From assembly GCF_040218225.1 (NCBI RefSeq), contig NZ_JAVJQO010000008.1, positions 620,001 through 684,000 of the forward strand: DNA of 64,000 nt, read 5' to 3'. The number at the start of each line of letters is the position of its first letter. Positions within the stretch are counted from its first letter, which is position 1. A program made the translations under genes and the position numbers. The notes below the pieces were generated by a model that was not told the origin of the DNA, searched no databases, and saw only the letters and a program-made list of their open reading frames with translations. This document shows positions 49,415-64,000 of the stretch, in pieces. The DNA comes from Gracilimonas sp. Its GTDB lineage: Bacteria > Bacteroidota > Rhodothermia > Balneolales > Balneolaceae.

Positions 49415-52400
49415 GTGAAAATCACCCAAAGCACACATATCGGACTATTGACCCTGCTGATTGCACTCATAAGTGTGGAAACTATTTCCGCGCAAGTTCC
49501 GGGGTATACCTTCCGTAAAAAATTTGCTGTTGATAATGCCCAGGTTTCAGGCTCTACAAATTTGACTGATTTTCCTGTACTTATCTCACTCACAGAAAAT
49601 GATTTCAGAACCACGGGTAATGGTGGGGGTGTTGAAAGCCCCAATGGATATGATATTGTATTCACTTCTGCAGATGGTTCTACCGTTCTTGATCATGAGC
49701 TGGAATCATACAATGCCTCAACCGGTGAAATCTTATTTTGGGTTCGCTTCCCTACCCTTAATGCCACGTCTGATACCGAATTCTTCGTTTACTATGGAAA
49801 TTCCAGCCAAACTACCGATCAATCTGTAAATACCACCTGGAATTCCGGTTATCAAATGGTTCTGCACCTGGATAGTGACCTGAGTGACGCAACTTCTAAT
49901 GGAAATAATGGTTCTACGAGTGGAACTTCTGTAATTCCAGGAATAATTGGTGACGGGCGTGATTTCAATGCCGGGAGCGGAAATGACATAATTACCATTC
50001 CAGATGACCCTTCCATTGAGATTACCGGAGATATTACTATTTCATTCTGGATGAATGGTTCCAATCTTAATTCTGTAGGCCCCGACTTGGTAACCAAAGG
50101 TGCTTACAACAGTTCTTATGCCGTTTATTACTTTAATAATATCACCGTTAACGATGACGGAACTGCCTTTGATGGTAGCGCCTTGAATGACGGACAAGAT
50201 TATTATGTCACTTTCACAAACAGCAGTACCAATGGCCGTACTATTTATATTGATGGAGCGCAGGATGTAACTAACGGAACCGCGTTCAACTTCACCCCAA
50301 ATGGAGACAACCTCACCCTTTCAAGCGGAGATTTTCAGTTTGACGGGATGATGGATGAAGTTCGGATTTCGAATGTTGCACGCTCGGCCGACTGGATTGC
50401 TACGGAATACAGCAACCAAAATGCGCCGGGAAGTTTTATCTCTGAGATACCTGATCCGCCTGTTCTTGCCGATATTGAATCTTCTCCACAGAACTTTTTT
50501 GCCGGGGGTTCTGAGGTTTTTATTACTTCAGCTATTACTGTTGACCATCCATTTACTTCTAATCTCTCAAGTGCTGAAATCGAAATCACCGGAAATTATA
50601 ATGCTTCTGAGGATGTACTCGACTTCACTGACCAGAATGGAATAACAGGCAGCTGGAATTCGGGAACAGGTATTCTATCACTTTCCGGGACGGCTACCTT
50701 AGCACAATACCAAGCTGCTTTAAGGGATGTTACCTATGAGAATACCAACGGTTCTACCCCTGACCAAAGCACCAGAACAATATCAGTAACCGTCAATGAT
50801 GGGTCAAACGACAGCAACACCCTCACAAGAGATCTCAATATAATCACTACCCTGACTGACCTATCGACTGATTTAGCCAATCCCGTTTTTCATTTTGATG
50901 CACAGGATGTAAATGGTGATTTAAATCTGGGGAATCAGCCTGGAGATGGTACCTCTGTCGCTTCCTGGGGAGACCGTTCAGATAATGCTGTGGGTTCCGG
51001 AACTGATCTTTCAGCAATAAATGGAACTGCTGCCCAACGTCCACTATTCAATTCAAACTATTTTGGTGAACGGGGTGGAATTCTTTGGGATGGAACCGAT
51101 GATAACCTTGATCCGCCAAACAACGCTATTTTAAATACAGCTAGTTATACAGAAAAATCTTTTGCCGTTGTTTTCAGAACCGGGGCATCAGTTACAGGGT
51201 TACAGGTAATTTACGAACAAGGTGGTGGTACCCGGGGGTACCAGATTAGTATTAAAGATGGTAATGCGTACGCTTTCGTATGGAATAACAACGAATGGGG
51301 CGTCGGGAATCAATACAAATCAATTGATTTAGGAGTAGTCCAACCCAATGAGAGTTATATATTGATTGCGAGCCATGATGCGACAGCCGGTGCGCTAGTC
51401 AATCGTACCTGGTCAGCAAGCATAAACGGTGGTACTGCCATTACTTTGTCCAATACTGATGTTCAGCAAGCTCATAGTGGCGGTGCCATCATTGGTGAAG
51501 AAAACGGAACCCGCGACCCGGTGACAACAGCAAACAACCCAGCAGGCAATAACAATTTTAACGGATACATCGGCGAGTTTTTATCCTGGAATACAGCCCT
51601 TAATGGCGGACAGATGGCCAGTGTGTACGACTACCTCTGCGATAAATGGTGTAATGAACCTCCTGTCCTGGCTTCAATTGAAATGACAGACCTTGATTAT
51701 ACAGAAGGTGATTCACCAACTTCTGTCTCCTCCTCACTAACTGTTTCAGATAGTGATAATACTATTCTTGAGGGAGCCACCGTAACCATTTCTTCAAATT
51801 TTGAGACCTCCGAAGACGTTCTGGATTTCACTCCTGTCGGAAATATTGGCGGAAGCTATAATTCAACAACGGGTGAACTAACACTTTCAGGAACTGATTC
51901 ACCAGCTAACTATCAAACTGTTCTTCGTTCGGTTACTTACGAAAATACGAACACCGTCAATCCATCCACAGCATTAAGAACCATCGATTTTGAAGTGGAA
52001 GATTGGGATGATGTAAGCAACACGGCCTCCCGTGATATAAATGTAATTGCTGTAAATAGTACTCCTTCTCTTTCCGGTATTTCAGGACCTGCTTTAACAT
52101 ACAATGAAGGAAGCGGGGCTGTAAATGGTAGTGCCGCATTTACGGTGGCTATTTCAGATGCAGATGACACCAATATGGAAAGTGCCACCATTGCCATCAC
52201 AAATAATTATACGCTTGGGGAAGACGAACTTGGCTTTCCGAATCAGCTTGGAATTACCGGAAGCTGGAACTCTACAACGGGCATTTTGACCCTGACTGGT
52301 TCTGCATCCCTGGCTGATTATCAGACGGCACTTGAGGCTGTAACTTACGAAAACCTGAGTGCTGATCCGGTTGAGATTACCCGGACTATTTCATTTACCG

Positions 52401-55400
52401 TTAATGATGGAGCGAGTAACAGCAATACCGAATCCAGAGATTTAGATGTGGTAGCTGCTAACTCAGCGCCGGTGCTTTCCGGTATCGAATCCTCGGCTCT
52501 GAATTATGATAATGCAGCTATTCAAATAACGTCTACCCTACAAGTATCTGACCCGGATGACACTCAACTCGACAGTGCCTTCGTGTTGATTACTCAAAAT
52601 TTCAAACCCGCCGAAGATTCCCTTTTATATTCGGAGATTTTTGGAATTACCGGGGATTTCGATGATCAAACAGGACGATTAAAACTGGAAGGAACTACTT
52701 CTTTAAGTGATTATCAGACAGCCCTGAGAACCGTTGAATACAAAAACTTTGCCACCATACCTACCGGACCCGAACGAGAAATCAGTTTTGTAGCTCACGA
52801 CGGAGCACTAGCCAGTGACACAGTGAAACGCACAATTGAAGTGAATGCGGTAGAAGCTATTAACGGATTGGAAGTTTGGCTGCGCGCAGATGCCGGAATT
52901 GTAACCAGCGGCAGTGAAGTTGTGACCTGGCAGGATCAAAGTGGAAATGGAAATGATTATACCGGAACCGCAGATGCCGGAACCCGGCCTACATTTGTAA
53001 GCAGTTCAAGCCTGCTTAATAATCAGCCCTCTATTAACTTTGCCGGTAACGGGGATCACTTTGCTGATACTGATGGAGAGAATTATATCAATGGATCAAC
53101 CGAGTTTACCATCTTTTTGGTTTTGAAATCAGATCAGACCAATACTGACCGTGGATTGTTTATTGCAGAAACACCCGTTTCTCAAGATAAGACATTAACC
53201 ATTCGTTATGATGCAGCCGGAGCTAATACCGGCGGTGCCTTTACCAATGTAGTAAAGGCAGGGATACTGGGAGATGATCCCGACAACCAAATTGAGAGTT
53301 TTACTGATATCCAGACAACTAATGGGCAGATTATCAGCTATCAGTGGCAAAGTGGCAATACCTATGATATTTTTATAGATGGTATTCTGAATAACCCCAG
53401 TTCGATTGGCCCGCCTCCAACAGGTACTATTAGCAATGCTACCACAGCAATTTTAGGTAAAGGGGGGAAAGATGATCCCGATACCAACAACCAAAGCTGG
53501 GATGGTGAGATCGCAGAGTTTATTTATTATGGCCGGCTTCTCACACCATCCGAGCGGGAAAATGTAGAAGATTACCTCTCAGAGAAATACACGCTTTCAA
53601 TCCGAAAAATTACGGCGGCAGAAAACGGTGAAAATATTTCTGCTGATGACGCAAATACCTCCTACACCTCCCTCACGGGGCCTATTATCAAAGAAGGTTT
53701 TGCCGGAGAACTATCCGCAAGCGGAACTTTTGTACTCAATGCACCAACTGGTTTTGAATGGAATACAGGAGCAACTCCATCCGTATCTACTTCAGCGGTT
53801 TACGGAGGTACAACAACTCTTGCTGTTTCATATACGAGTATTACTTCTTCTCAAGTTACTTTTACGGTTAATACTGCTTCAACTTCAAATCCGGGTGAGA
53901 TTGATATTAGCGGACTTCAAATTCGCCCTACCACCGGAGCATTACCCAATACAGGCAACATCACCAATACGGGTACTACAGGACTTGGTGGAGGAACTAA
54001 TTATGGTTCGCTATCTATGGTTGCAGGTGCTTTGGACAGCCTTGTAATTACTCAGCAGCCATCATCTACAAATGTAAATACGGCTATCACACCAGCCGTT
54101 CGTGTACAACTTACCGACCAGTTCGGGAATAGTGTGAAGCAAGCAGGAGTATCGGTTAACATGGCTTTAACTTCCGGAACGGGATCATTATCGGGGACCA
54201 CCAGTCGTTTGACAAACTCTTTGGGAATAGCTGATTTTTCAGATCTCGAAATTGATGATGTAGGCACAAAACAACTCACAGCTACAAGTTCTGGCCTTGA
54301 TAATGCCGTAAGTTCAAACTTCAGTATTGTAAATGCCGGCGTACTTACAGGATTTAAAGTTGAACGCGTGCCTTCCGGAAATATCAGCCCAAAAATAGCC
54401 GGACAAAATTTCAACATAAAAATTACTGCCATTGATGGTTCTGGGACAACTGTAACTACTTTTTCGGGAACCACGGTTGTAACTTCTTCTTGTGATATGG
54501 GGTTAGGACAAGGTACTACATCCAGTTTCAGTTTAGGAGTTCTGTCCTCCCTTACTGTTAACATTACCAGTGTCGGTAATTGTACAATTACGGCAACCAA
54601 TTCCTCAGGCTCCGAAACCGGGGTAAGTAATTCATTTGCTGTATCAGCGGGCGCAGCTGATGAGTCCGAAACCACTATCTCTGCTTCTCCCACTGTAATT
54701 CTAAATGATGGAGCCAGCACTTCTACGATTACGGTTCAAGCCAAAGATGCTTTTGGAAATAACGTTACAAGCGGAGGTGCTACCGTAGTATTAAACACTG
54801 ATGAGGGTTCAATTGGCAGTGTTACTGATAATTCGAATGGCACCTATTCGGCCACGCTTACATCCTCCACGGGAACAGTTGTTGCAACGATAACCGGTAC
54901 TTTGAATGGAAATAGTATCAGTGATAATGCCCTGGTAGAGTTTGCCTCCTTCAGTCATATCTGGGAAAGTCAGCTCGGTTCTGTTGCTGATGCCTCCAAT
55001 TATTTTGATCCTGACAACTGGAACGTTGGTTCTGTACCGAATGCAGCCTCAGTTGTACTGATTCCTGCGAGTCCTGCTGTTGGTAATGAGTTTCCTGTTG
55101 TTAATGTAACCGATACAGAAATTGCTGCCCTTTCCATCGAGGCTAGCGCTGAACTCAACATATCAGGTGGTGTTAACTTTATCGTCTCAGGTGATGTTAC
55201 CGGAAACGGGGAACTACTGGGAAGTAATAATGACTCTCTTACCATTGGTGGTGATCTGAATATTCCGAATTTCACCCTAGGTAATATCATATTTAATGGA
55301 AGCAGCGACCAAACTATTCAAAGTCCACATTCTTTTGTAAACGTTGAGGTTGACAATCCCGGAACAGTAGAAATCACAAACAATTTCACTGTAACTGGTA

Positions 55401-56989
55401 TTCTCACTATGACCGATGGCGAATTACTCGTACCAAGCGGCCTAAACCTGATCGCCAATACACAAGCATATGGAACAGGTGTTCTGCGGTTCCAGAGAAA
55501 AATTTCAGGAGTCAGAGGCTGGAGAATGCTGGCATCGCCGGTAAACTCAACCGTCGGTGACTTCCTTGACGGCACCCTTACCCAGGGTTATACGGGTGCA
55601 ACGTACAGTACAGGCTCAGATCCCGGTGATACTCTTCAGCCTAACGTAATGTGGTATCTTGAAGATTATGATATTAATGAAGAAGGCTTACCAGCCACTG
55701 ATAACGACCGATTAAGAGCCCCTTCAAATAGTACAAACTCTCTGGTGGCCGGAAGAGGTTACTGGGTTTACTTTTTCGGAAGCATTCCAGCTGACCCTCT
55801 GTATAATGATCCGCTTCCGGATACCCTGGATGTAGCCGGACAGGAATTTGGGTCTGGTGCAACTGAAGTAGATTTTGGTGTTACTTATACCCCTGAAGCC
55901 GATTCTGGATGGAACTTTGTAGGGAATCCGTTTGGAGCATCTATTAACTGGAATAATGCCGCAAACTGGACGAAGACAAATATTGAATCAACCATTTATA
56001 TTTGGGATCCGGCTGCCAATAGTGGAAATGGAGAATTCCTTACCTGGAATGGGTCAACAGGCTCTCTGGGTAGTGGTATCATCCCGGCCTTCCAGGGATT
56101 TTGGGTAAAAGCCAATGCCTCAAGTCCCGAACTGAAAGTTAAAAATGCAGCCAAAACCACGGGGGGTAACTTCCTCCGCAAAGAAGTTCCGGCACAGCTG
56201 CAAGAGTTTGAAAGTTCACCTCCTGTTTTGGAGCTCAAAGCAACTGGGAATGGGTTGGCAAAAGTAACCCATGTTATGCTAAGCCAGAATGGTACAGAAG
56301 GTAAAGACGATCAGGATGCATTGCGGCTTCTACCCTTCTCAGATTCACACATTGAATTTTATTCAACGCTGAGTAATGGTACAGAGCTTGTGATCAATAA
56401 CCGACCAGCCAATTTCAGCCACCGCCAAAATGTTCCCCTGCATTTCGAGTCTTACATTAATGGACAAGTTGCAGCTGGTAGTTACACCCTTAGCTGGCCC
56501 GGACTTAGAAATGTACCTGAGGAATGGTTATTAATCTTGTTTGACCATGAGACCGGACAGGAAATTAATCTCAGAGAGCAGGAAAATTATGTTTTCAGCT
56601 ACAATTCAAAGAAAAAACTAAAGCAGGCTCAGCCTACAAACGGGGCTCCTTCCCTGAAGAAAAACAAATCTTCCGCAAGATTCCTCTTGAGAATTACCAC
56701 TGAGGAAATTGAGGCTAATATCCCTGAAGAAGTTTACTTATATCAAAACTATCCGAACCCGTTTAATCCAACTACCACTATTCCATTTGGACTAACTGAA
56801 GAGTCGGATGTGACACTTGAAGTTTTTGACATTCTGGGAAGAAAAGTTCAAACCCTGGTTTCTGAGACACTTCCGGCAGGAAACTATAACATCCCTTTCC
56901 AGGCGGGCAGACTAGCGAGCGGGGTTTATTTATATCGTATCCTAACGAACCAAAAAGTTCTGACTAATAAAATGGTGCTGATTAAATAA
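49415..56989 (+). CDS. Giant multidomain T9SS cargo protein (2524 residues)
   Basis: Starts with GTG at 49415, with a signal peptide ending SAQ. In order: DUF2341 (about 30-150), LamG (150-335), cadherin-like repeat 1 (350-478), LamG-like (478-745), cadherin-like repeats 2-4 (748-1147), LamG-like (1148-1398), an unassigned beta domain (to 1540), invasin-like Big_1 domains (1540-1640 and 1748-1843), an 'NWNVGSVPN' segment (near 1860), the GWRMLASP module (2033-2252) and the T9SS type A tail (2440-2524). It is probably a surface adhesin or carbohydrate-binding protein. Partner and ligand are unknown. Confidence 0.88.
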   Translation: MKITQSTHIGLLTLLIALISVETISAQVPGYTFRKKFAVDNAQVSGSTNLTDFPVLISLTENDFRTTGNGGGVESPNGYDIVFTSADGSTVLDHELESYNASTGEILFWVRFPTLNATSDTEFFVYYGNSSQTTDQSVNTTWNSGYQMVLHLDSDLSDATSNGNNGSTSGTSVIPGIIGDGRDFNAGSGNDIITIPDDPSIEITGDITISFWMNGSNLNSVGPDLVTKGAYNSSYAVYYFNNITVNDDGTAFDGSALNDGQDYYVTFTNSSTNGRTIYIDGAQDVTNGTAFNFTPNGDNLTLSSGDFQFDGMMDEVRISNVARSADWIATEYSNQNAPGSFISEIPDPPVLADIESSPQNFFAGGSEVFITSAITVDHPFTSNLSSAEIEITGNYNASEDVLDFTDQNGITGSWNSGTGILSLSGTATLAQYQAALRDVTYENTNGSTPDQSTRTISVTVNDGSNDSNTLTRDLNIITTLTDLSTDLANPVFHFDAQDVNGDLNLGNQPGDGTSVASWGDRSDNAVGSGTDLSAINGTAAQRPLFNSNYFGERGGILWDGTDDNLDPPNNAILNTASYTEKSFAVVFRTGASVTGLQVIYEQGGGTRGYQISIKDGNAYAFVWNNNEWGVGNQYKSIDLGVVQPNESYILIASHDATAGALVNRTWSASINGGTAITLSNTDVQQAHSGGAIIGEENGTRDPVTTANNPAGNNNFNGYIGEFLSWNTALNGGQMASVYDYLCDKWCNEPPVLASIEMTDLDYTEGDSPTSVSSSLTVSDSDNTILEGATVTISSNFETSEDVLDFTPVGNIGGSYNSTTGELTLSGTDSPANYQTVLRSVTYENTNTVNPSTALRTIDFEVEDWDDVSNTASRDINVIAVNSTPSLSGISGPALTYNEGSGAVNGSAAFTVAISDADDTNMESATIAITNNYTLGEDELGFPNQLGITGSWNSTTGILTLTGSASLADYQTALEAVTYENLSADPVEITRTISFTVNDGASNSNTESRDLDVVAANSAPVLSGIESSALNYDNAAIQITSTLQVSDPDDTQLDSAFVLITQNFKPAEDSLLYSEIFGITGDFDDQTGRLKLEGTTSLSDYQTALRTVEYKNFATIPTGPEREISFVAHDGALASDTVKRTIEVNAVEAINGLEVWLRADAGIVTSGSEVVTWQDQSGNGNDYTGTADAGTRPTFVSSSSLLNNQPSINFAGNGDHFADTDGENYINGSTEFTIFLVLKSDQTNTDRGLFIAETPVSQDKTLTIRYDAAGANTGGAFTNVVKAGILGDDPDNQIESFTDIQTTNGQIISYQWQSGNTYDIFIDGILNNPSSIGPPPTGTISNATTAILGKGGKDDPDTNNQSWDGEIAEFIYYGRLLTPSERENVEDYLSEKYTLSIRKITAAENGENISADDANTSYTSLTGPIIKEGFAGELSASGTFVLNAPTGFEWNTGATPSVSTSAVYGGTTTLAVSYTSITSSQVTFTVNTASTSNPGEIDISGLQIRPTTGALPNTGNITNTGTTGLGGGTNYGSLSMVAGALDSLVITQQPSSTNVNTAITPAVRVQLTDQFGNSVKQAGVSVNMALTSGTGSLSGTTSRLTNSLGIADFSDLEIDDVGTKQLTATSSGLDNAVSSNFSIVNAGVLTGFKVERVPSGNISPKIAGQNFNIKITAIDGSGTTVTTFSGTTVVTSSCDMGLGQGTTSSFSLGVLSSLTVNITSVGNCTITATNSSGSETGVSNSFAVSAGAADESETTISASPTVILNDGASTSTITVQAKDAFGNNVTSGGATVVLNTDEGSIGSVTDNSNGTYSATLTSSTGTVVATITGTLNGNSISDNALVEFASFSHIWESQLGSVADASNYFDPDNWNVGSVPNAASVVLIPASPAVGNEFPVVNVTDTEIAALSIEASAELNISGGVNFIVSGDVTGNGELLGSNNDSLTIGGDLNIPNFTLGNIIFNGSSDQTIQSPHSFVNVEVDNPGTVEITNNFTVTGILTMTDGELLVPSGLNLIANTQAYGTGVLRFQRKISGVRGWRMLASPVNSTVGDFLDGTLTQGYTGATYSTGSDPGDTLQPNVMWYLEDYDINEEGLPATDNDRLRAPSNSTNSLVAGRGYWVYFFGSIPADPLYNDPLPDTLDVAGQEFGSGATEVDFGVTYTPEADSGWNFVGNPFGASINWNNAANWTKTNIESTIYIWDPAANSGNGEFLTWNGSTGSLGSGIIPAFQGFWVKANASSPELKVKNAAKTTGGNFLRKEVPAQLQEFESSPPVLELKATGNGLAKVTHVMLSQNGTEGKDDQDALRLLPFSDSHIEFYSTLSNGTELVINNRPANFSHRQNVPLHFESYINGQVAAGSYTLSWPGLRNVPEEWLLILFDHETGQEINLREQENYVFSYNSKKKLKQAQPTNGAPSLKKNKSSARFLLRITTEEIEANIPEEVYLYQNYPNPFNPTTTIPFGLTEESDVTLEVFDILGRKVQTLVSETLPAGNYNIPFQAGRLASGVYLYRILTNQKVLTNKMVLIK

Positions 56990-57276: not shown

Positions 57277-57729
57277 ATGACTGACTATTCAGATATTATT
57301 TACCTCGGTGCTGCAATGGTAGTTTTTTCATTGCTTACAATGAACACATCCCGAAGTTTTCAGGTAACCATAGATACCATGGTAAGGTCTGAATTGGAAT
57401 ATAGAGCCATTTCGGCTGCTCAGGAAGAAATTGACGCTATCCGCTGGGTACAGGCCAGATATAAAAGTCAGGATCCTTTCAAATCATCCAACAGTCAATA
57501 TTTATATGATGACAATCCTATACAGCGTACCTTTAAATATGGTGTAGACGAGGAGTATTCAGAAACATTCACCATTTACAGGAAAGCTGAAGAAAGCGAT
57601 GATTGTGACTTATTGGATTCTACCACGCAGCGTTGTTATGAAATTACTATTACCGTTCAGAATAATTCTCTGGACCCTCCGATTACAGTAACTCAAAAAC
57701 TCATCAGAACCTTAACATTTAACAGCTAA
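57277..57729 (+). CDS. Pilin-like protein 1 (hydrophobic N-helix, one Cys pair)
   Basis: A 150-residue protein. After seven polar residues comes a hydrophobic helix (about 8-22), then an amphipathic helix (SELEYRAISAAQEEIDAIRW), as in pilins and pseudopilins. There is no prepilin-peptidase site (no G|FxxxE). The C-terminal part has exactly two cysteines (CDLLDSTTQRC) and ends in a beta strand. It is first of three consecutive genes of similar layout, with only 5 bases to the next. Function inferred only: minor structural subunit of a surface filament or envelope complex. Confidence 0.6.
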   Translation: MTDYSDIIYLGAAMVVFSLLTMNTSRSFQVTIDTMVRSELEYRAISAAQEEIDAIRWVQARYKSQDPFKSSNSQYLYDDNPIQRTFKYGVDEEYSETFTIYRKAEESDDCDLLDSTTQRCYEITITVQNNSLDPPITVTQKLIRTLTFNS

Positions 57730-57734
57730 CGGCC

Positions 57735-58355
57735 ATGAATATAGGTATTGTTACAAGTTATGTTATTGGAGGTTTTATGCTGATTTCGATTCTTGCATTT
57801 AATATCAGCTTAAATACAACCAGCCAGGAGACCACCATATCTACTATCAATCAGGAAAAAAGAGACAACTTGGTACAGTTGCTTTCCTGTGACTTCAATG
57901 GCTTAGGTTATTCAGATGATGTTTTTAATAATGACCCTATACAAGTAAGCGAGGATGATGAAATTGAATTCAGAACCTCCCCTGCTTGTGTTGACGGAGG
58001 TAATGATACTTCTGGTGAATTAGTAACACTTTACGCCAACTCTTCTAATCTGGCAACATCCACCACGAACCCGAATGACTTTTATTTGTACCGCGAAGAC
58101 AAAAATGGAACCTCCCGTTTCCTGGTTACTCATTTTGAACTGGTTTACTTTCGAAAAAATATTGTTAGCGGAGATTGGGATGAGGTTGCCAATCCAGCTT
58201 CACTTTTATCTCAAAGAGAAATAAAGATAAGAGTTGAGATCATGATCGAATCAGAAGAACCTATTCGTATTAGTCCACAAGGGGTATATATATATCACCG
58301 AACCGCATGGACCAGAGAATTTATCCCCAACATTATGAATCACCCCTGGAATTAA
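57735..58355 (+). CDS. Pilin-like protein 2
   Basis: A 206-residue protein with an N-terminal hydrophobic helix (about 4-26, TSYVIGGFMLISILAF) and a following polar helix (QETTISTINQEKRDNLVQLL). Like its neighbours it has exactly two cysteines (SCDFN near 51 and PACVDG near 84). The rest is beta-rich. No prepilin-peptidase site is visible. It ends 12 bases before the DUF4900-like gene, whose start has GGAGAG upstream. Confidence 0.6.
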   Translation: MNIGIVTSYVIGGFMLISILAFNISLNTTSQETTISTINQEKRDNLVQLLSCDFNGLGYSDDVFNNDPIQVSEDDEIEFRTSPACVDGGNDTSGELVTLYANSSNLATSTTNPNDFYLYREDKNGTSRFLVTHFELVYFRKNIVSGDWDEVANPASLLSQREIKIRVEIMIESEEPIRISPQGVYIYHRTAWTREFIPNIMNHPWN

Positions 58356-58367
58356 AAGGAGAGTATT

Positions 58368-59684
58368 ATGGGAAGAGCAATGCTATTTCTTGTTAGTGGT
58401 TTAGTTATCATTTCGGGCATTATCCAAATGGCTAACACCAATCGTACTGAAGTTCTGCCTCAGCGCACCGCCATTCACTTTAATGAACAGCAAGCCAAAA
58501 ACGTAGCTTCAAGTCTTATTGACAATGCAATCCAGAATTTACTGGTAGATATGGAATGGTCTGATGAAATCTCAATGTCTACCGAAAGTGGCGCAACTGG
58601 CACTTTATATATGAGTCAACCTGATCCTGATGATGAGTTCCGGGTGCTGCTTACCAGTTTTGGAACATATGGAGGTTATCGGTCAGAGATAGAAGTTTTA
58701 ATGCAAAGAGATTCTTTTTCAAGATATTCGTACTTCACAGACTCAGAAACTTTCTCTCCACCAAATGATAATGTGAAAATTTGGTGGTGGAATAATGACC
58801 AGGTTACCGGACCGGTTCACACAAATGGAACATTTAGTATGTCTGGCTCTCCTACTTTTAATGGTTTTGTTTCCAGCCCTAATGACTGGATTGGATATAC
58901 CGGAGATGAAGATAGTAGTGACCCGGATGAACGTCATGGTAGTGATTCACCTAATTTTAATGGCGGAACCAATTTCAATCTTACCAAAGACAAAGAATTA
59001 CCAGGAACGGAACAAATTAACCTTCTGAAAAGTGAGGCTACCCTTACCTTTGACGAACATAGTGATGTTGAATTCTATGAGGATTTGTTAGGTGATGGCT
59101 ATGTAAAAGTAAAAGATGAAGATTGTAATGATATTCTTTTATGCTATGACCACTATAAACTTTCAAACTATGAAAACCCTGATGGCGGAGTAGTTATAAG
59201 TATTGATGGAAGAGCAAATGTAAAGGGAGATGTGAAAGGAAGAGTTACCCTGCATTCATCCACTAAAATAAATATCATGGGTGATATCCGATACGACACA
59301 AACCCATTGGTTGATTCTACTTCAACCGATTTATTAGGGTTGGTAAGTGAAGGAGACGTAATGATTGACGAAGATGCTCATGATGATGAAGGAAGCTACC
59401 ATTTAACTATCCATGCTTCCATTATGGCACTCGGAACTTCTTTTGAAGTTGAAAATTGGGGAGGTGGAAGCCCACGAGGAACCCTAAATCTTCTTGGTGG
59501 AATTATCCAGAAAAACAGGGGCCCGGTAGGTACTTTTAGTGGCAACAATGTTGCAACGGGCTATACCAAAAATTATATATATGACACCCGACTTCAGCAA
59601 ACAATCCCTCCTTCTTTTCCAAGAGAAAGTATCTTCTCATTGGTATACTGGAGAGATAAGCCTGTTATCAAAATTGACTCATAA
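58368..59684 (+). CDS. DUF4900-like, PilX-like envelope protein
   Basis: A 438-residue protein with an N-terminal hydrophobic helix (about 3-21) and a PilX-like polar helix (FNEQQAKNVASSLIDNAIQNL). The middle part (YSYFTDSETFSPP, TGPVHTNGTFSMSGSPTFNGFV near 155) resembles DUF4900, a family beside pilin-like genes. The second half is beta-helical (VVISIDGRANVKGDVKGRVTL) with the only two cysteines in CNDILLC. It is probably the largest or tip-like subunit of the three. Confidence 0.65.
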   Translation: MGRAMLFLVSGLVIISGIIQMANTNRTEVLPQRTAIHFNEQQAKNVASSLIDNAIQNLLVDMEWSDEISMSTESGATGTLYMSQPDPDDEFRVLLTSFGTYGGYRSEIEVLMQRDSFSRYSYFTDSETFSPPNDNVKIWWWNNDQVTGPVHTNGTFSMSGSPTFNGFVSSPNDWIGYTGDEDSSDPDERHGSDSPNFNGGTNFNLTKDKELPGTEQINLLKSEATLTFDEHSDVEFYEDLLGDGYVKVKDEDCNDILLCYDHYKLSNYENPDGGVVISIDGRANVKGDVKGRVTLHSSTKINIMGDIRYDTNPLVDSTSTDLLGLVSEGDVMIDEDAHDDEGSYHLTIHASIMALGTSFEVENWGGGSPRGTLNLLGGIIQKNRGPVGTFSGNNVATGYTKNYIYDTRLQQTIPPSFPRESIFSLVYWRDKPVIKIDS

Positions 59685-59719
59685 GTAACATTTAACACAT
59701 TATATACGAAGTTCATAAA

Positions 59720-60106
59720 ATGAAGAAATTACTATTTGTAACCGCTACCCTGATATTAACCTCCACTATCGCAGTGTACGCACAGCACAAGGTTACTTTC
59801 CAAATCAATCTCAAGCCCATGCTCGAGGATAGTACTTTCATCCCCGGTCAGGATTATGTTCAGGTTACCGGTAGCTTCAGTCCTATAAGCACAAGACCTG
59901 TACGTCTTTATGATACTAATCCAGTGGATAGCATTTACACAGCGGAAGTGCGCTTTTCTTCACGATACTCAAATCAAGAACTACAATATAATTTTGAGAT
60001 TGTATCCCCTGATAGCAAGAAGAAAGAAAGACTTCCTCGCAAAGTTTCACTCAGAAGCAGAGAGATTGAATTACAGCCTCTCTATTTTGATGCTTTTGCC
60101 TGGTAG
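59720..60106 (+). CDS. Small secreted beta-sandwich protein
   Basis: A 128-residue protein with a Sec signal peptide (ending VYAQ). The mature part reads KVTFQINLKPML ... QDYVQVTGSFSP ... ELQYNFEIVS, a pattern like the carbohydrate-binding CBM20/CBM48 immunoglobulin-like fold. Binding residues cannot be confirmed. It sits 35 bases after the DUF4900-like gene and is likely co-transcribed. Confidence 0.55.
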   Translation: MKKLLFVTATLILTSTIAVYAQHKVTFQINLKPMLEDSTFIPGQDYVQVTGSFSPISTRPVRLYDTNPVDSIYTAEVRFSSRYSNQELQYNFEIVSPDSKKKERLPRKVSLRSREIELQPLYFDAFAW

Positions 60107-60315: not shown

Positions 60316-60813
60316 ATGAGATATTTTCTTTTAGCAATCTTTCTATTGGTGTCATCTCCTTTCATAGCAGCTCAGGATAATAATGGTATATCCGCACAGG
60401 TAAATGTAAGTGCAGAAATCATACAGTCCATTGAGCTGATTACGGTAAACTCTATGCGCTTTGGAAATGCAAACCCTGGCCAACGAGAAATTTATGTAAA
60501 TCCGATCAACAGTCTTAATGCCGGGTTTATGATTGCTGTTGGGACTCCGGATGCCGAGTTCCGTCTCAATTATTTACCTGAAAGAGAACTAACTCAAATT
60601 GATGGCAATGCTACTCTTACTTTCACTTATGAAATCTCAGGTAATCCCGAGGAGAACCAGTCCACCTCGGAACTGCTAGAACTTGACAACAGAAACATAC
60701 AATTTAATAGTGAAGGCCGATATTACATCTGGGTAGGTGGTAGAGTGAATCTTGAAAATGCTGCACCCGGTAATTATGAAGGTGACTTTACTATTGAAAT
60801 AGACTACATATGA
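60316..60813 (+). CDS. DUF4402-like secreted structural protein 1
   Basis: A 165-residue protein with a Sec signal peptide (ending IAAQ). The mature domain has the DUF4402 outline: an early VNSMRFGNANPG strand and the C-terminal signature YYIWVGGRVNLENAAPGNYEGDFTIEIDYI (split over positions 136-165). DUF4402 proteins resemble Csu-type pilus subunits. The TGA stop overlaps the next ATG (ATGA), so translation is coupled to gene 2. Confidence 0.7.
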   Translation: MRYFLLAIFLLVSSPFIAAQDNNGISAQVNVSAEIIQSIELITVNSMRFGNANPGQREIYVNPINSLNAGFMIAVGTPDAEFRLNYLPERELTQIDGNATLTFTYEISGNPEENQSTSELLELDNRNIQFNSEGRYYIWVGGRVNLENAAPGNYEGDFTIEIDYI

Positions 60814-61463
60814 TCCCTAGATCACATAGAAAAACATTGGATTTCAAGCCTTTCAAAAAGAAGGGTTTTAGGCGTTCTATGTACATGGTGATATTTGGCA
60901 TCCTTTGTTTAACCAATTGGATAACCCTTTCTGCTCAGGAAATTAATTTTGGAGATTTCAGTAGCAAATACGCCGTTTCGCTGTCTGAATTAAATCCAGC
61001 GGAAGATTTGAGCTTTGGGATGGTCGTACAAAATGAAGGGCTAAAAAGTATCGACCTGATTGACTCAAAAGTTTTAATTATTGAAGGGGTAAAATACCTG
61101 GATGTGATCGTTGACATAACAGCAGATAACTATTTATATCTTGATGATGATATTGCTTGCAATGGTACCAACTCAAATTGTATCCCTTTTACTATTCAGG
61201 CAGCCTATGCGAATCGTGGTAATAATGATACTAATCAAGCAGTTCTTATGCAGGTTGCTTCAAATGTAGCAAGTGCCCAGTTTCCAATTGAAGCACGGGG
61301 TAATCGCCCACCCGGCCCGCCCCCTACTCCGGTTTATGAAGGCTATAATCCAGCTCTGTATAATGAAACCGCATATATCTATGTATATGGTTCTCTGAAT
61401 GTTGGAAATATAGACGCCGGCAGCTATTCAGGTAATATTACAATTACCATTTCTTATGACTAA
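60810..61463 (+). CDS. DUF4402-like secreted structural protein 2
   Basis: A 217-residue protein. A positively charged lead of about 22 residues precedes the signal peptide (ending LSAQ); an ATG at 60879 would give a normal-length signal but would lose the ATGA coupling. The mature part has the FGDFSSKYAVSL/LSFGMVVQNEG start, a single cysteine pair (CNGTNSNC), a Pro-rich insert (PPGPPPTP) and the tail YIYVYGSLNVGNIDAGSYSG. It overlaps gene 3 by 8 bases. Confidence 0.68.
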   Translation: MIPRSHRKTLDFKPFKKKGFRRSMYMVIFGILCLTNWITLSAQEINFGDFSSKYAVSLSELNPAEDLSFGMVVQNEGLKSIDLIDSKVLIIEGVKYLDVIVDITADNYLYLDDDIACNGTNSNCIPFTIQAAYANRGNNDTNQAVLMQVASNVASAQFPIEARGNRPPGPPPTPVYEGYNPALYNETAYIYVYGSLNVGNIDAGSYSGNITITISYD

Positions 61464-61977
61464 ACGATTTGTTTACATACTGCTGCTAGTTATTAGCCTA
61501 TCCCCTATCACAAAAGCCCAGTTTATTAATCTTCAACTTAAGATTGAACCTGAATTAAGTGCAACTGTTGAGCAGGATTTAGATTTTGGAACCTTAGTAA
61601 CCAATTCCGGAAGAACTGAGATTCAGTTGGGTGATGTAAATATGGGGGTATTTAGCATTCGGGCTTTTCATACTCAAAATGTATACCTCAATTTGCAGTA
61701 TCCTGAGGTACTCAGAAATGAAAACCCGGCAATTAGTGACGAAATCCCTCTTCAACTAAACATGTCTTATAATAACACCGGAAATAATAATGCTATTAAT
61801 TCTGCCCCACTTACTGCAAATAGCGGATTTATCTCGATCCACGATAACACCCAGCTGGAAAACCGCAACGACATCTGGAAACAAATGTACATCTATGTAT
61901 ATGGAGCGATTGAAGTAGGAAATATTCCCAATGGTGTTTATACCGGTGAAGTAGTCTTAAGTGTAGATTACGATTAA
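61456..61977 (+). CDS. DUF4402-like secreted structural protein 3
   Basis: A 173-residue protein with a signal peptide ending TKAQ. It has the same DLDFGTLVTNSG opening and the tail MYIYVYGAIEVGNIPNGVYTG ending VDYD (signature at about residues 144-173). It carries no cysteine, unlike gene 2. Its last 19 bases are repeated exactly at 62423-62441. Confidence 0.7.
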   Translation: MTKRFVYILLLVISLSPITKAQFINLQLKIEPELSATVEQDLDFGTLVTNSGRTEIQLGDVNMGVFSIRAFHTQNVYLNLQYPEVLRNENPAISDEIPLQLNMSYNNTGNNNAINSAPLTANSGFISIHDNTQLENRNDIWKQMYIYVYGAIEVGNIPNGVYTGEVVLSVDYD

Positions 61978-62682
61978 TTTATTGCGAGATACCTCGGACT
62001 TAATGTATAGTACTACCTTATCAGCTTGAAGCAACCTGCCTTTCTCCTATACACCAACAATACGATGCCGTTCACGACTCGCCTGTTTACTTTAATACAT
62101 CCCATCATTGGCTGACAAATCATGCTAAAGTTACAAAGGGCGCTGCTGCACAAAGATTAGCAGCGAATTCACCATCCCATTTGAACCTTAATGGATAGGA
62201 TTACCGGATTTCCTTGATTACCCCAAATCCATCCTTACTATCCACTAATCAATTAAATCATGGTTCGAAACCCAGATTTTCTCCTGCCCCTTACAAGCAT
62301 TAACCACAAAAAAGGTCACTATTCCATTATTGATGGGAAAAGCTAGAAAATGAGTATTGATTAGAATCTCAATCCGATTCATAGAGAATGTTCACGTTTC
62401 TACCGGTATTAAACAGCAATGCAAGTGTAGATTACGATTAAATCTGCATTCCTAATCTTTTCGTATAGTTATTCAGATCTGAACATTAAAGAAATCTAAA
62501 TATAAATCTGAGTGTGCTTACTTATTTTTGTACCGTAAAATTATCATCTAGGACAATGATTACATGGTTTCAGCTCAAAAAGTTAGGACGTTTTAATTAA
62601 GAGTATCTAACTAGGAAGGCTTTCAGAAGATCAATAATTTTCTTTCAGAAATTAAACAAACACAAAACTCAATCTCACGATT
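61978..62682. other. 705-base gap inside the DUF4402 cluster
   Basis: No open frame longer than about 20 codons fits a gene. The stretch contains the decayed DUF4402 end at 62395-62441. A TATTTTTG at 62523-62530 matches the Bacteroidota -7 box TAnnTTTG, about 150 bases before the next ATG, but no -33 TTG is found at the usual distance. A relic of a lost gene plus the promoter region of the next gene is the simplest reading. Confidence 0.5.
62395..62441 (+). pseudogene. Decayed 3' end of a DUF4402-like gene
   Basis: GTTTCTACCGGT (62396-62407) matches GTTTATACCGGT near 61936-61947 at 11 of 12 bases. After a stretch of unlike sequence, 62423-62441 repeats exactly the last 19 bases, including the stop, of the gene ending at 61977. 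Frame is lost between the two. It is best read as the remains of a fourth tandem copy. Confidence 0.6.
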
Positions 62683-63186
62683 ATGAAAACTTTAAAAACT
62701 CTTTTATCAGTATTCGCGATAGCGGCTGTTTTTTCAACAGGCACTTATGCTCAGCAAAACATTAATGCTACTGCTACTGTAGTTGATGCTATTGCTTTTG
62801 GTACTCACCAGGATCTTGCTTTTGGTACTTTAGCATCTGGCGATACTAAAACAATTAGTGCCGACTCTTCATCTGCAGGTTATTTCGAAATTACCAGCTA
62901 CGCTCAAAGTAATACTATTGTAGCCGGTCTTTCTTACACTGACTTTACTGGAGGATCTGCACCTTCTTTTACAGAATCTTCTACCGTTAAGTATAGTTTC
63001 AGTGCAAGTGCTGCTCCAAATAATTCTAATCCTACACTTGGATCTGATGCAACTGGTGGTAACATCGCAACAAATACTGAGACAGATAACCTTTATATTT
63101 ATATCGGTGGTTCTGTAGATGCAACTGGTGCAAGTGCTGGAACATATACTGATGCTCAAATTACACTAACTGTAGAGTATCTTTAA
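62683..63186 (+). CDS. DUF4402-like secreted protein 4, candidate major subunit
   Basis: A 167-residue protein with a Sec signal peptide (ending TYAQ). The mature part is small-residue rich, with HQDLAFGTLASGDTKTI at the N-side and LYIYIGGSVDATGASAGTYTD near the end, closing in TLTVEYL. No cysteines. It has its own long leader and a strong terminator, unlike the coupled genes before it, so it may be expressed separately and at high level as the main structural subunit. That role is inferred. Confidence 0.68.
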   Translation: MKTLKTLLSVFAIAAVFSTGTYAQQNINATATVVDAIAFGTHQDLAFGTLASGDTKTISADSSSAGYFEITSYAQSNTIVAGLSYTDFTGGSAPSFTESSTVKYSFSASAAPNNSNPTLGSDATGGNIATNTETDNLYIYIGGSVDATGASAGTYTDAQITLTVEYL

Positions 63187-63208
63187 GACTTAGATAATCA
63201 AACTTTTC

Positions 63209-63239
63209 AAGCCATGAAGTTTTCTTCATGGCTTTTTTT
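63209..63239 (+). terminator. Strong intrinsic terminator after DUF4402-like gene 4
   Basis: AAGCCATGAAG (63209-63219) and CTTCATGGCTT (63224-63234) form a perfect 11-bp stem with a TTTT loop, followed by a T-run. It isolates the gene at 62683-63186 from the chaperone gene that follows. Confidence 0.92.
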
Positions 63240-63348
63240 ATAACGGTCCACGACGTAGAAATAACCTGAAAAAAACTTAGTGTAAAAGATTTAATTATTT
63301 TATCTATTAAATGCTAAATTGAGAAAGCCACTAAGTAAAAAAAAGTTT

Positions 63349-64000
63349 ATGAAAAACTTATTCAAGCACATAGCCACTACCTCTGTTTTTTTAGTGCTGT
63401 CAATTGTTATATCTGCCGAATTGATGGCCCAAATAACTATTGCCCCTACAAATCTGTTTATCGATTCAAGGAATAAGTTTGGTAGCTATTTAATCATAAA
63501 TAATTCCAGTGAACCTTATGAAATATCTATAGATTTCTTATTTGGTTACAGTGAAGCAGATGAAAATGGGAACAGATATCTTGTTTATGACGATTCTGTT
63601 ACAGCTGAAAAGTATTCTATTGTAGAGTGGATACGTGCGTTTCCCCAAAATCTCACTTTAGCTCCTAACCAAAGGCAAACTGTAAGGCTAAGAATTAATC
63701 CACCCAGCGATATTGAAAATGGTACGTACTGGGCTAGAATAAGAACAACTGCTACACCGCGATCAACAGCTATAGAAGATCAAAGTAATCAGGGTATATC
63801 TGCAAATATTGGATTAAGAATTCAGCAAATAACAGGTATTTTTTATAAAAATGGGACGGTTTCTACTGACATAAACATAAAAGATATTACTACTGAACAA
63901 AATAATGGCCAGATTGATGTTTTTTATGGCTTAGAAAGAACAGGAAACTCACCCTTCATAGGCAGTATTGGCGTAAAAATGTATGACTCAAACAACCGGG
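63349..64000 (+). CDS. PapD-like periplasmic pilus chaperone (3' end beyond window)
   Basis: Open from the ATG at 63349 (MKNLFKHIATTSV) to the window edge; 217 residues are visible. The signal peptide ends at LMAQ. The mature part begins ITIAPTNLFIDSRNKFGSYL and continues with a NSSEPYEISIDFLF strand and APNQRQTVRLRINPP, the typical first-domain layout of PapD-like chaperones (a beta edge and a 'L.P.q.q.vRl' strand). A second domain starts near 170. It should fold and cap the DUF4402-like subunits encoded upstream. The usual basic anchoring residues cannot be confirmed by eye. Confidence 0.72.
   Translation, partial: MKNLFKHIATTSVFLVLSIVISAELMAQITIAPTNLFIDSRNKFGSYLIINNSSEPYEISIDFLFGYSEADENGNRYLVYDDSVTAEKYSIVEWIRAFPQNLTLAPNQRQTVRLRINPPSDIENGTYWARIRTTATPRSTAIEDQSNQGISANIGLRIQQITGIFYKNGTVSTDINIKDITTEQNNGQIDVFYGLERTGNSPFIGSIGVKMYDSNNR

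Follow-up and report, generated by a model that had tools for sequence, protein, structure and literature searches.

The last genes of the DNA analysed here, from Gracilimonas sp., a marine bacterium of Balneolales (64,000 nucleotides of contig NZ_JAVJQO010000008.1, positions 620,001 to 684,000, hereafter the window), together with those that follow directly past its end, very probably encode a non-classical chaperone-usher pilus, the usher of which has a periplasmic tail that is proposed to bind the cell wall. The genes, their order and conservation, the predicted folds and the homology of the usher tail to SPOR domains were established directly, and the assignment of the locus as a chaperone-usher system is well supported; from the usher tail we infer an anchoring to the wall. 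The system is a divergent clade of the chaperone-usher pathway in Bacteroidota, and is neither usher-less nor a cargo of the type IX secretion system (T9SS).

An earlier note, made from the letters of the window, had suggested a chaperone-usher-like or an usher-less system in this phylum, with the usher, if any, just past position 64,000. The host genome sequence supplied the 3′ part of the operon, with coordinates that continue the window numbering, and an usher gene does lie at the place foreseen, directly 3′ of the chaperone gene, which rules out usher-less assembly. The usher and chaperone folds described below bear out a chaperone-usher-like system in this phylum, and none of the outcomes that the note had taken as counter-evidence (lack of a chaperone fold, lack of DUF4402 matches, or downstream genes of an unrelated pathway) was found.

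Folds of the chaperone and usher

Structures were predicted for the chaperone and for residues 1-890 of the usher. The chaperone model (predicted local distance difference test, pLDDT, 93.7) has the two-domain PapD-like fold of chaperones of this pathway, as the earlier note had read from the strands of the first domain. Its structural matches in VIA include YadV, SfaE, CsuC, FimC, SafB and Caf1M (Z 13-14), with superpositions mostly at 3-5 Å over 170-195 residues, which is most of both domains, and at 3.2-3.9 Å for SfaE, YadV, CsuC and FimC; EcpB, CfaA and CsuC stand near the top of the Foldseek matches (E ~1e-9). The chaperone superfamily has a single invariant residue, a proline (Pro59 of CsuC, Pro60 of EcpB; PMC4654587), and P99, invariant in 33 chaperone homologs, aligns with Pro60 of EcpB and hence occupies the super-conserved position.

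It could be argued that the PapD-like gene encodes instead a WxLIP-like or other immunoglobulin (Ig)-domain wall protein, and that the subunits leave the cell by T9SS or by an independent route. The WxLIP of Enterococcus indeed ties the best VIA score and is the best Foldseek match, and weak matches to Por_Secre_tail, the best at 6e-5, occur in 16 of the 33 chaperone homologs. WxLIP, however, superposes at 7 Å, against 3-4 Å for the pilus chaperones, the chaperone gene is linked to that of a genuine usher, and the subunits lack a T9SS sorting domain; the weak Por_Secre_tail matches probably reflect Ig-like similarity of domain 2. We therefore consider a wall protein very improbable and retain the chaperone assignment.

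In the usher model (pLDDT 83.8) the barrel has 24 strands (residues 192-661); a plug of six strands (291-361) is inserted after strand 6 and before strand 7, and the barrel is followed by a pair of C-terminal domains, at about 679-770 and 774-871. This plan identifies the protein as an usher and is shared with FimD and PapC of type 1 and P pili. The best 19 Foldseek matches are all FimD/PapC (E down to 1.9e-28), and VIA gave Z 20-24 for these proteins as opposed to 15.7 for the next unrelated barrel, a porin. The window usher differs from FimD/PapC in its low identity to them (11-15%), in its N-terminal domain, which the model places at residues 36-151 and which is not superposed in the VIA matches (these begin at ~174), and in an added C-terminal extension of 300 residues. 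Single-sequence PDB searches with the usher and with the chaperone returned nothing useful, and hhalign comparison with single E. coli EcpB (chaperone) and EcpC (usher) sequences gave values far too weak for a claim of homology.

Matches to the usher family, many of full length and some partial, occur in 87 of 394 sampled genomes of Bacteroidota, genome comparisons here resting on assemblies of which many are fragmented. Some usher homologs give a weak match to Cu_amine_oxidN1. One relative (L028, 1961-9494) has two chaperone genes and a 1533-residue usher with a large insertion; its genome is without flagellar FliF.

The order subunits-chaperone-usher is kept across Balneolales and was seen in dozens of loci belonging to several families, and the arrangement is thus not a product of chance. 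Chaperone and usher genes overlap or are nearly in contact in most loci; at the window locus the usher reading frame starts one base after the end of the chaperone gene (64194 to 64196).

Subunits

The four subunit reading frames that the earlier note had described, the first two overlapping through ATGA and the second and third by 8 bases, were recovered as such, and every product has an N-terminal signal peptide with AQ as its last residues. The early FG and C-terminal G-Y...Y signature that it had noticed is real, since a 16-sequence alignment of all four subunit types holds G152, Y154 and the penultimate Y164 invariant and F49-G50 almost so. A stretch, PPGPPPTP, is conserved in subunit 2.

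The assignment of all four proteins to DUF4402 (PF14352) stood in part. In the Pfam scan subunit 1 lies above the cut-off (26.1 bits), subunits 3 (E 6e-4) and 2 (E 0.0096) fall below it, and the window's own subunit 4 gave no match; among 16 aligned members of the subunit-4 family, including those of relatives, 9 match DUF4402, the best at E 2.8e-9. The same scan, taken to E<=10, returned only DUF4402 and chance matches for the four subunits, with neither SCPU (PF05229) nor Por_Secre_tail among them. The Por_Secre_tail sorting domain is present in two large upstream proteins, and its absence from the subunits led us to reject their export by T9SS. When the profile of all four types was compared with solved chains, the only one matched was the pilin domain of CsuE, an archaic tip protein (E 0.023, nearly full length), a likeness that is suggestive only.

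Subunit 4 has an upstream gap of its own and, 3′ of it, a strong terminator-like hairpin (~63209-63234, followed by a U run) with a folding energy of -16.5 kcal/mol (z -4.7 against shuffles), in agreement with the terminator that had been placed there. Such a transcriptional arrangement would fit a major subunit that is produced in excess. Subunit 4 is thus likely the shaft pilin, while subunits 1-3 would be minor or tip pilins, subunit 1 being probably minor or tip-proximal.

The usher tail

Within the C-terminal extension of the usher, residues 913-1159 form a SPOR tail, in which PF05036 matches two stretches (61.1 bits, cut-off 21). The C-terminal domains of ushers of known plan face the periplasm, and a peptidoglycan-binding tail at this end would therefore tie the usher to the wall.

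Of 63 distinct ushers, 31 (including L097 and L104, placed by their tail matches) have a SPOR tail, 14 a TPR tail accompanied by motor genes and 2 an OmpA-like one, and the remaining 16 have another tail or lack one; these classes were set by models built from the same loci, so that counts for distant ushers are lower bounds. The group of 16 includes one usher with OmpA (L033) and one with SPOR just below the cut-off (L076). Two further ushers of this group (L073 and L079) carry TPR of another make, with no linked motor.

Proposed assembly and anchoring

We propose that Sec carries the four DUF4402-like pilins over the inner membrane and that the PapD-like chaperone would cap them in the periplasm by donor-strand complementation before handing them over to the usher, which would polymerise them by donor-strand exchange and export the fibre. 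The shaft would consist of subunit 4, with subunits 1-3 in minor or tip positions, and the SPOR domains of the usher extension would bind peptidoglycan, bracing the usher against mechanical load.

Several points weigh against this proposal. The chaperone and the usher of the window match neither PapD_N nor PF00577 themselves; they were assigned through their folds and their relatives, PapD_N being detected in 12 of 33 chaperone homologs and PF00577 in 4 of 32 usher homologs (best 2e-8) and in 8 of 58 genomes. The FimD-like usher predicted by the earlier note hence exists by fold, without the Pfam match that it had named. Arg89 of CsuC and EcpB, conserved in archaic and alternative chaperones, binds the subunit C-terminus (PMC4654587); R130, invariant in the homologs and near this place, is probably the arginine of non-classical chaperones, its placement not being certain as it lies two residues off in the profile alignment. 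Peptidoglycan binding by the tail would follow from its family membership, and donor-strand chemistry, like pilus formation, wall binding and an adhesive role, is something that we infer from these homologies. Finally, no two-domain tip adhesin was seen at the locus.

The lack of a visible tip adhesin gene would also fit a system in which chaperone and usher export not a rod-like adhesive pilus but a thin surface coat or polyadhesin capsule, and capsule-like fibres are made by known usher systems as well. Four distinct single-domain subunits, one of them a separately terminated candidate for the major pilin, resemble more closely a shaft with its minor components, and we regard a non-pilus product as improbable compared with a pilus.

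Motor-linked relatives

In relatives of the window locus, ushers with a different tail are linked to genes of a flagellar type. All 14 ushers with the characteristic TPR tail have a FliF-FliG fusion and a TPR lipoprotein as their next genes, in contrast with none of the 49 other ushers, and most of the 14 loci also encode MotA and MotB-OmpA, the MotB often with a SPOR tail. Tail type and motor switch jointly in seven of seven independent comparisons on the usher tree (p 0.016), trees that come from quick searches and in which several distant ushers sit on long branches. The genes are tightly packed, the gap from usher to FliF ranging from -71 to +112 bases.

The FliG part of the fusion is secure (solved FliG, E 5.6e-27; FliG_M in 13 and FliG_C in 12 of the 14 members, with significant FliG_N matches as well). 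Matches are weaker for the FliF part: YscJ_FliF_C occurs in 10 of 14, at best 1.9e-4, and a solved FliF is matched at E 5.5e-4. MotA is matched at E 7e-17 and MotB by MotB_plug and OmpA, and the MotB proteins keep the transmembrane (ion-channel) aspartate and a conserved W..S.LD motif. FliG domains, MotA and the MotB aspartate together mark a motor of flagellar type, in the relatives only. The module differs from the flagellar motor in that its genes adjoin those of an usher and a TPR lipoprotein, that flagellar FliF is absent from nine motor-bearing genomes, two of which are single contigs, and that it is missing at the window locus; the genome of the window has neither an usher-linked nor a stand-alone motor, and its only such genes form an ordinary flagellar cluster. 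Two loci of one family (L027, 3892-5430; L039, 4814-5635) have a FliF-like gene behind the usher, with an incomplete FliG or none and with neither MotA nor MotB; one FliF-like protein of this family contains a LysM domain.

Usher TPR tail and TPR lipoprotein are homologs (E 1e-14), and the docking domain of the usher may have been acquired from that lipoprotein, a component of the motor. Several relatives also carry a copy of the motor (FliF-FliG, TPR lipoprotein, MotA, MotB) away from any usher, indicating that the module exists independently of ushers too. Stand-alone clusters of the MotB-OmpA type were seen at L118 (7847-12904), L119 (5679-10711) and L120 (5505-10659); in L118 a 367-residue protein is encoded between FliF-FliG and the lipoprotein, and flagellar FliF is absent from the genomes of L118 and L119 and present in that of L120.

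The co-occurrence of the genes, their tight packing and the common TPR domain support a physical link between the sister systems and a motor driven by protons, which is plausible; rotation itself is hypothetical. With somewhat less than even confidence, we suggest that in the sister loci the TPR tail and the TPR lipoprotein physically dock the usher to a ring of FliF-FliG that is not flagellar and that MotA/MotB would drive, the pilus thereby being rotated or mechanically driven by proton-motive force. In this view the usher of the window, with its SPOR tail, would be the static member of one machine family, anchored to the wall instead.

A further possibility is that the window system is a static remnant, whose ancestor had FliF-FliG and MotAB behind a TPR-tailed usher and lost the motor, leaving a pilus that is now only anchored. 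Consistent with such a history, the usher placed nearest to that of the window in the tree, which belongs to the same genus (L022), has a motor between the usher and rpoN, and the SPOR tails of usher and MotB are homologous along about 250 residues. In contrast, usher SPOR tails within the genus are alike (79% identity to the nearest), whereas MotB tails form a separate, supported clade and are ~27% identical to the window tail. The SPOR tail was thus not recently taken from MotB, and on the same grounds we reject a recent event in which motor genes were deleted and the window usher became joined to a MotB tail. Moreover, the seven switches on the tree do not fix the direction of change. We consider loss of a motor from the window system unlikely.

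Gene layout and neighbouring features

The operon and the gene that follows it are listed in Table 1. ATG at 63350 is a likelier start for the chaperone than an upstream TTG.

Table 1. Coordinates of the pilus operon and adjoining features, in window numbering.
Feature	Position	Strand	Basis or remark
Subunit 1, DUF4402-like secreted pilin, 165 residues	60316..60813	+	PF14352 above cut-off; first operon gene kept in Balneolales
Subunit 2, DUF4402-like secreted pilin, 217 residues	60810..61463	+	PF14352 E 0.0096; family kept in relatives
Subunit 3, DUF4402-like secreted pilin, 173 residues	61456..61977	+	PF14352 E 6e-4; family kept in relatives
Subunit 4, candidate major (shaft) pilin, 167 residues	62683..63186	+	Alignment with subunits 1-3; DUF4402 matches in family; hairpin 3′
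Hairpin and U run, candidate terminator or attenuator, between subunit 4 and chaperone	63209..63240	+	Folding energy
PapD-like periplasmic chaperone, 281 residues	63350..64194 (window part 63350..64000)	+	AlphaFold fold matches
Usher, 1171 residues	64196-67711, past the window		Model, fold matches, SPOR PF05036
rpoN	67719-69227, past the window	-	Directly after usher

An exact 19-base direct repeat (61959-61977 and 62423-62441) copies the 3′ end of subunit 3 464 bases downstream. The non-coding stretch that it bounds differs in length among relatives and is possibly an insertion or a decayed duplication.

Four genes upstream of the operon (57277-60106) encode proteins of 150, 206, 438 and 128 residues; a hydrophobic segment stands at the N terminus of the first three, and the 438-residue protein has a weak DUF4900 match. 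They adjoin the pilus operon in many relatives too, and are possibly a functional partner of it. Farther upstream (49415-56989) lies a gene for a 2524-residue T9SS-type protein with Invasin_D3, Laminin_G_3, DUF2341 and a sorting tail.

Discussion

Among known systems, the window locus resembles Csu, the archaic (sigma) pilus of Acinetobacter baumannii, in having a two-domain chaperone, an usher and several small pilins in one operon, in the match of the chaperone fold to CsuC, and in a subunit profile that weakly matches the pilin domain of CsuE. It differs from Csu in its DUF4402 pilins and in the SPOR tail added to the usher; as the pilins are not SCPU proteins, we have not adopted the archaic class for it. 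The alternative (alpha) pili, ECP and CFA/I, are alike in that EcpB and CfaA are close in fold to the window chaperone, and ECP differs in the very low sequence similarity of EcpB and EcpC to the window proteins and in its two-domain tip, EcpD, which has no counterpart here. Type V pili (FimA/Mfa1) are, by description, likewise surface fibres of Bacteroidota, and the pili of P. gingivalis are built by a strand-based mechanism; to our knowledge, descriptions of type V pili include neither a PapD-like chaperone nor a FimD-like usher. Chaperone-usher pili of the classical and alternative kinds have been described as confined to beta- and gamma-Proteobacteria, and archaic systems are recorded from Proteobacteria, Cyanobacteria and Deinococcus-Thermus, with Bacteroidota not among them (PMC4654587).

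Searches of the open-access literature, in which absence is weak evidence, found nothing relevant on an usher with a SPOR domain, on a chaperone-usher system with FliG and MotA, or on non-flagellar FliG in Bacteroidetes, no mention of DUF4402, and no earlier description of the motor-linked swap of usher tails. Ushers are unmentioned in a review of 5:2 motors (PMC9389320) and in one of motility systems (PMC7004002).

The presence of usher homologs in more than a fifth of the sampled genomes widens the range of the chaperone-usher pathway to organisms that are usually discussed through T9SS. If the usher tail does bind peptidoglycan, this built-in domain would explain how an outer-membrane pore resists the pull on its pilus. 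The strict exchange of that tail for TPR whenever FliF-FliG genes follow the usher provides, in addition, a case that can be tested for a chaperone-usher pilus driven by a motor.

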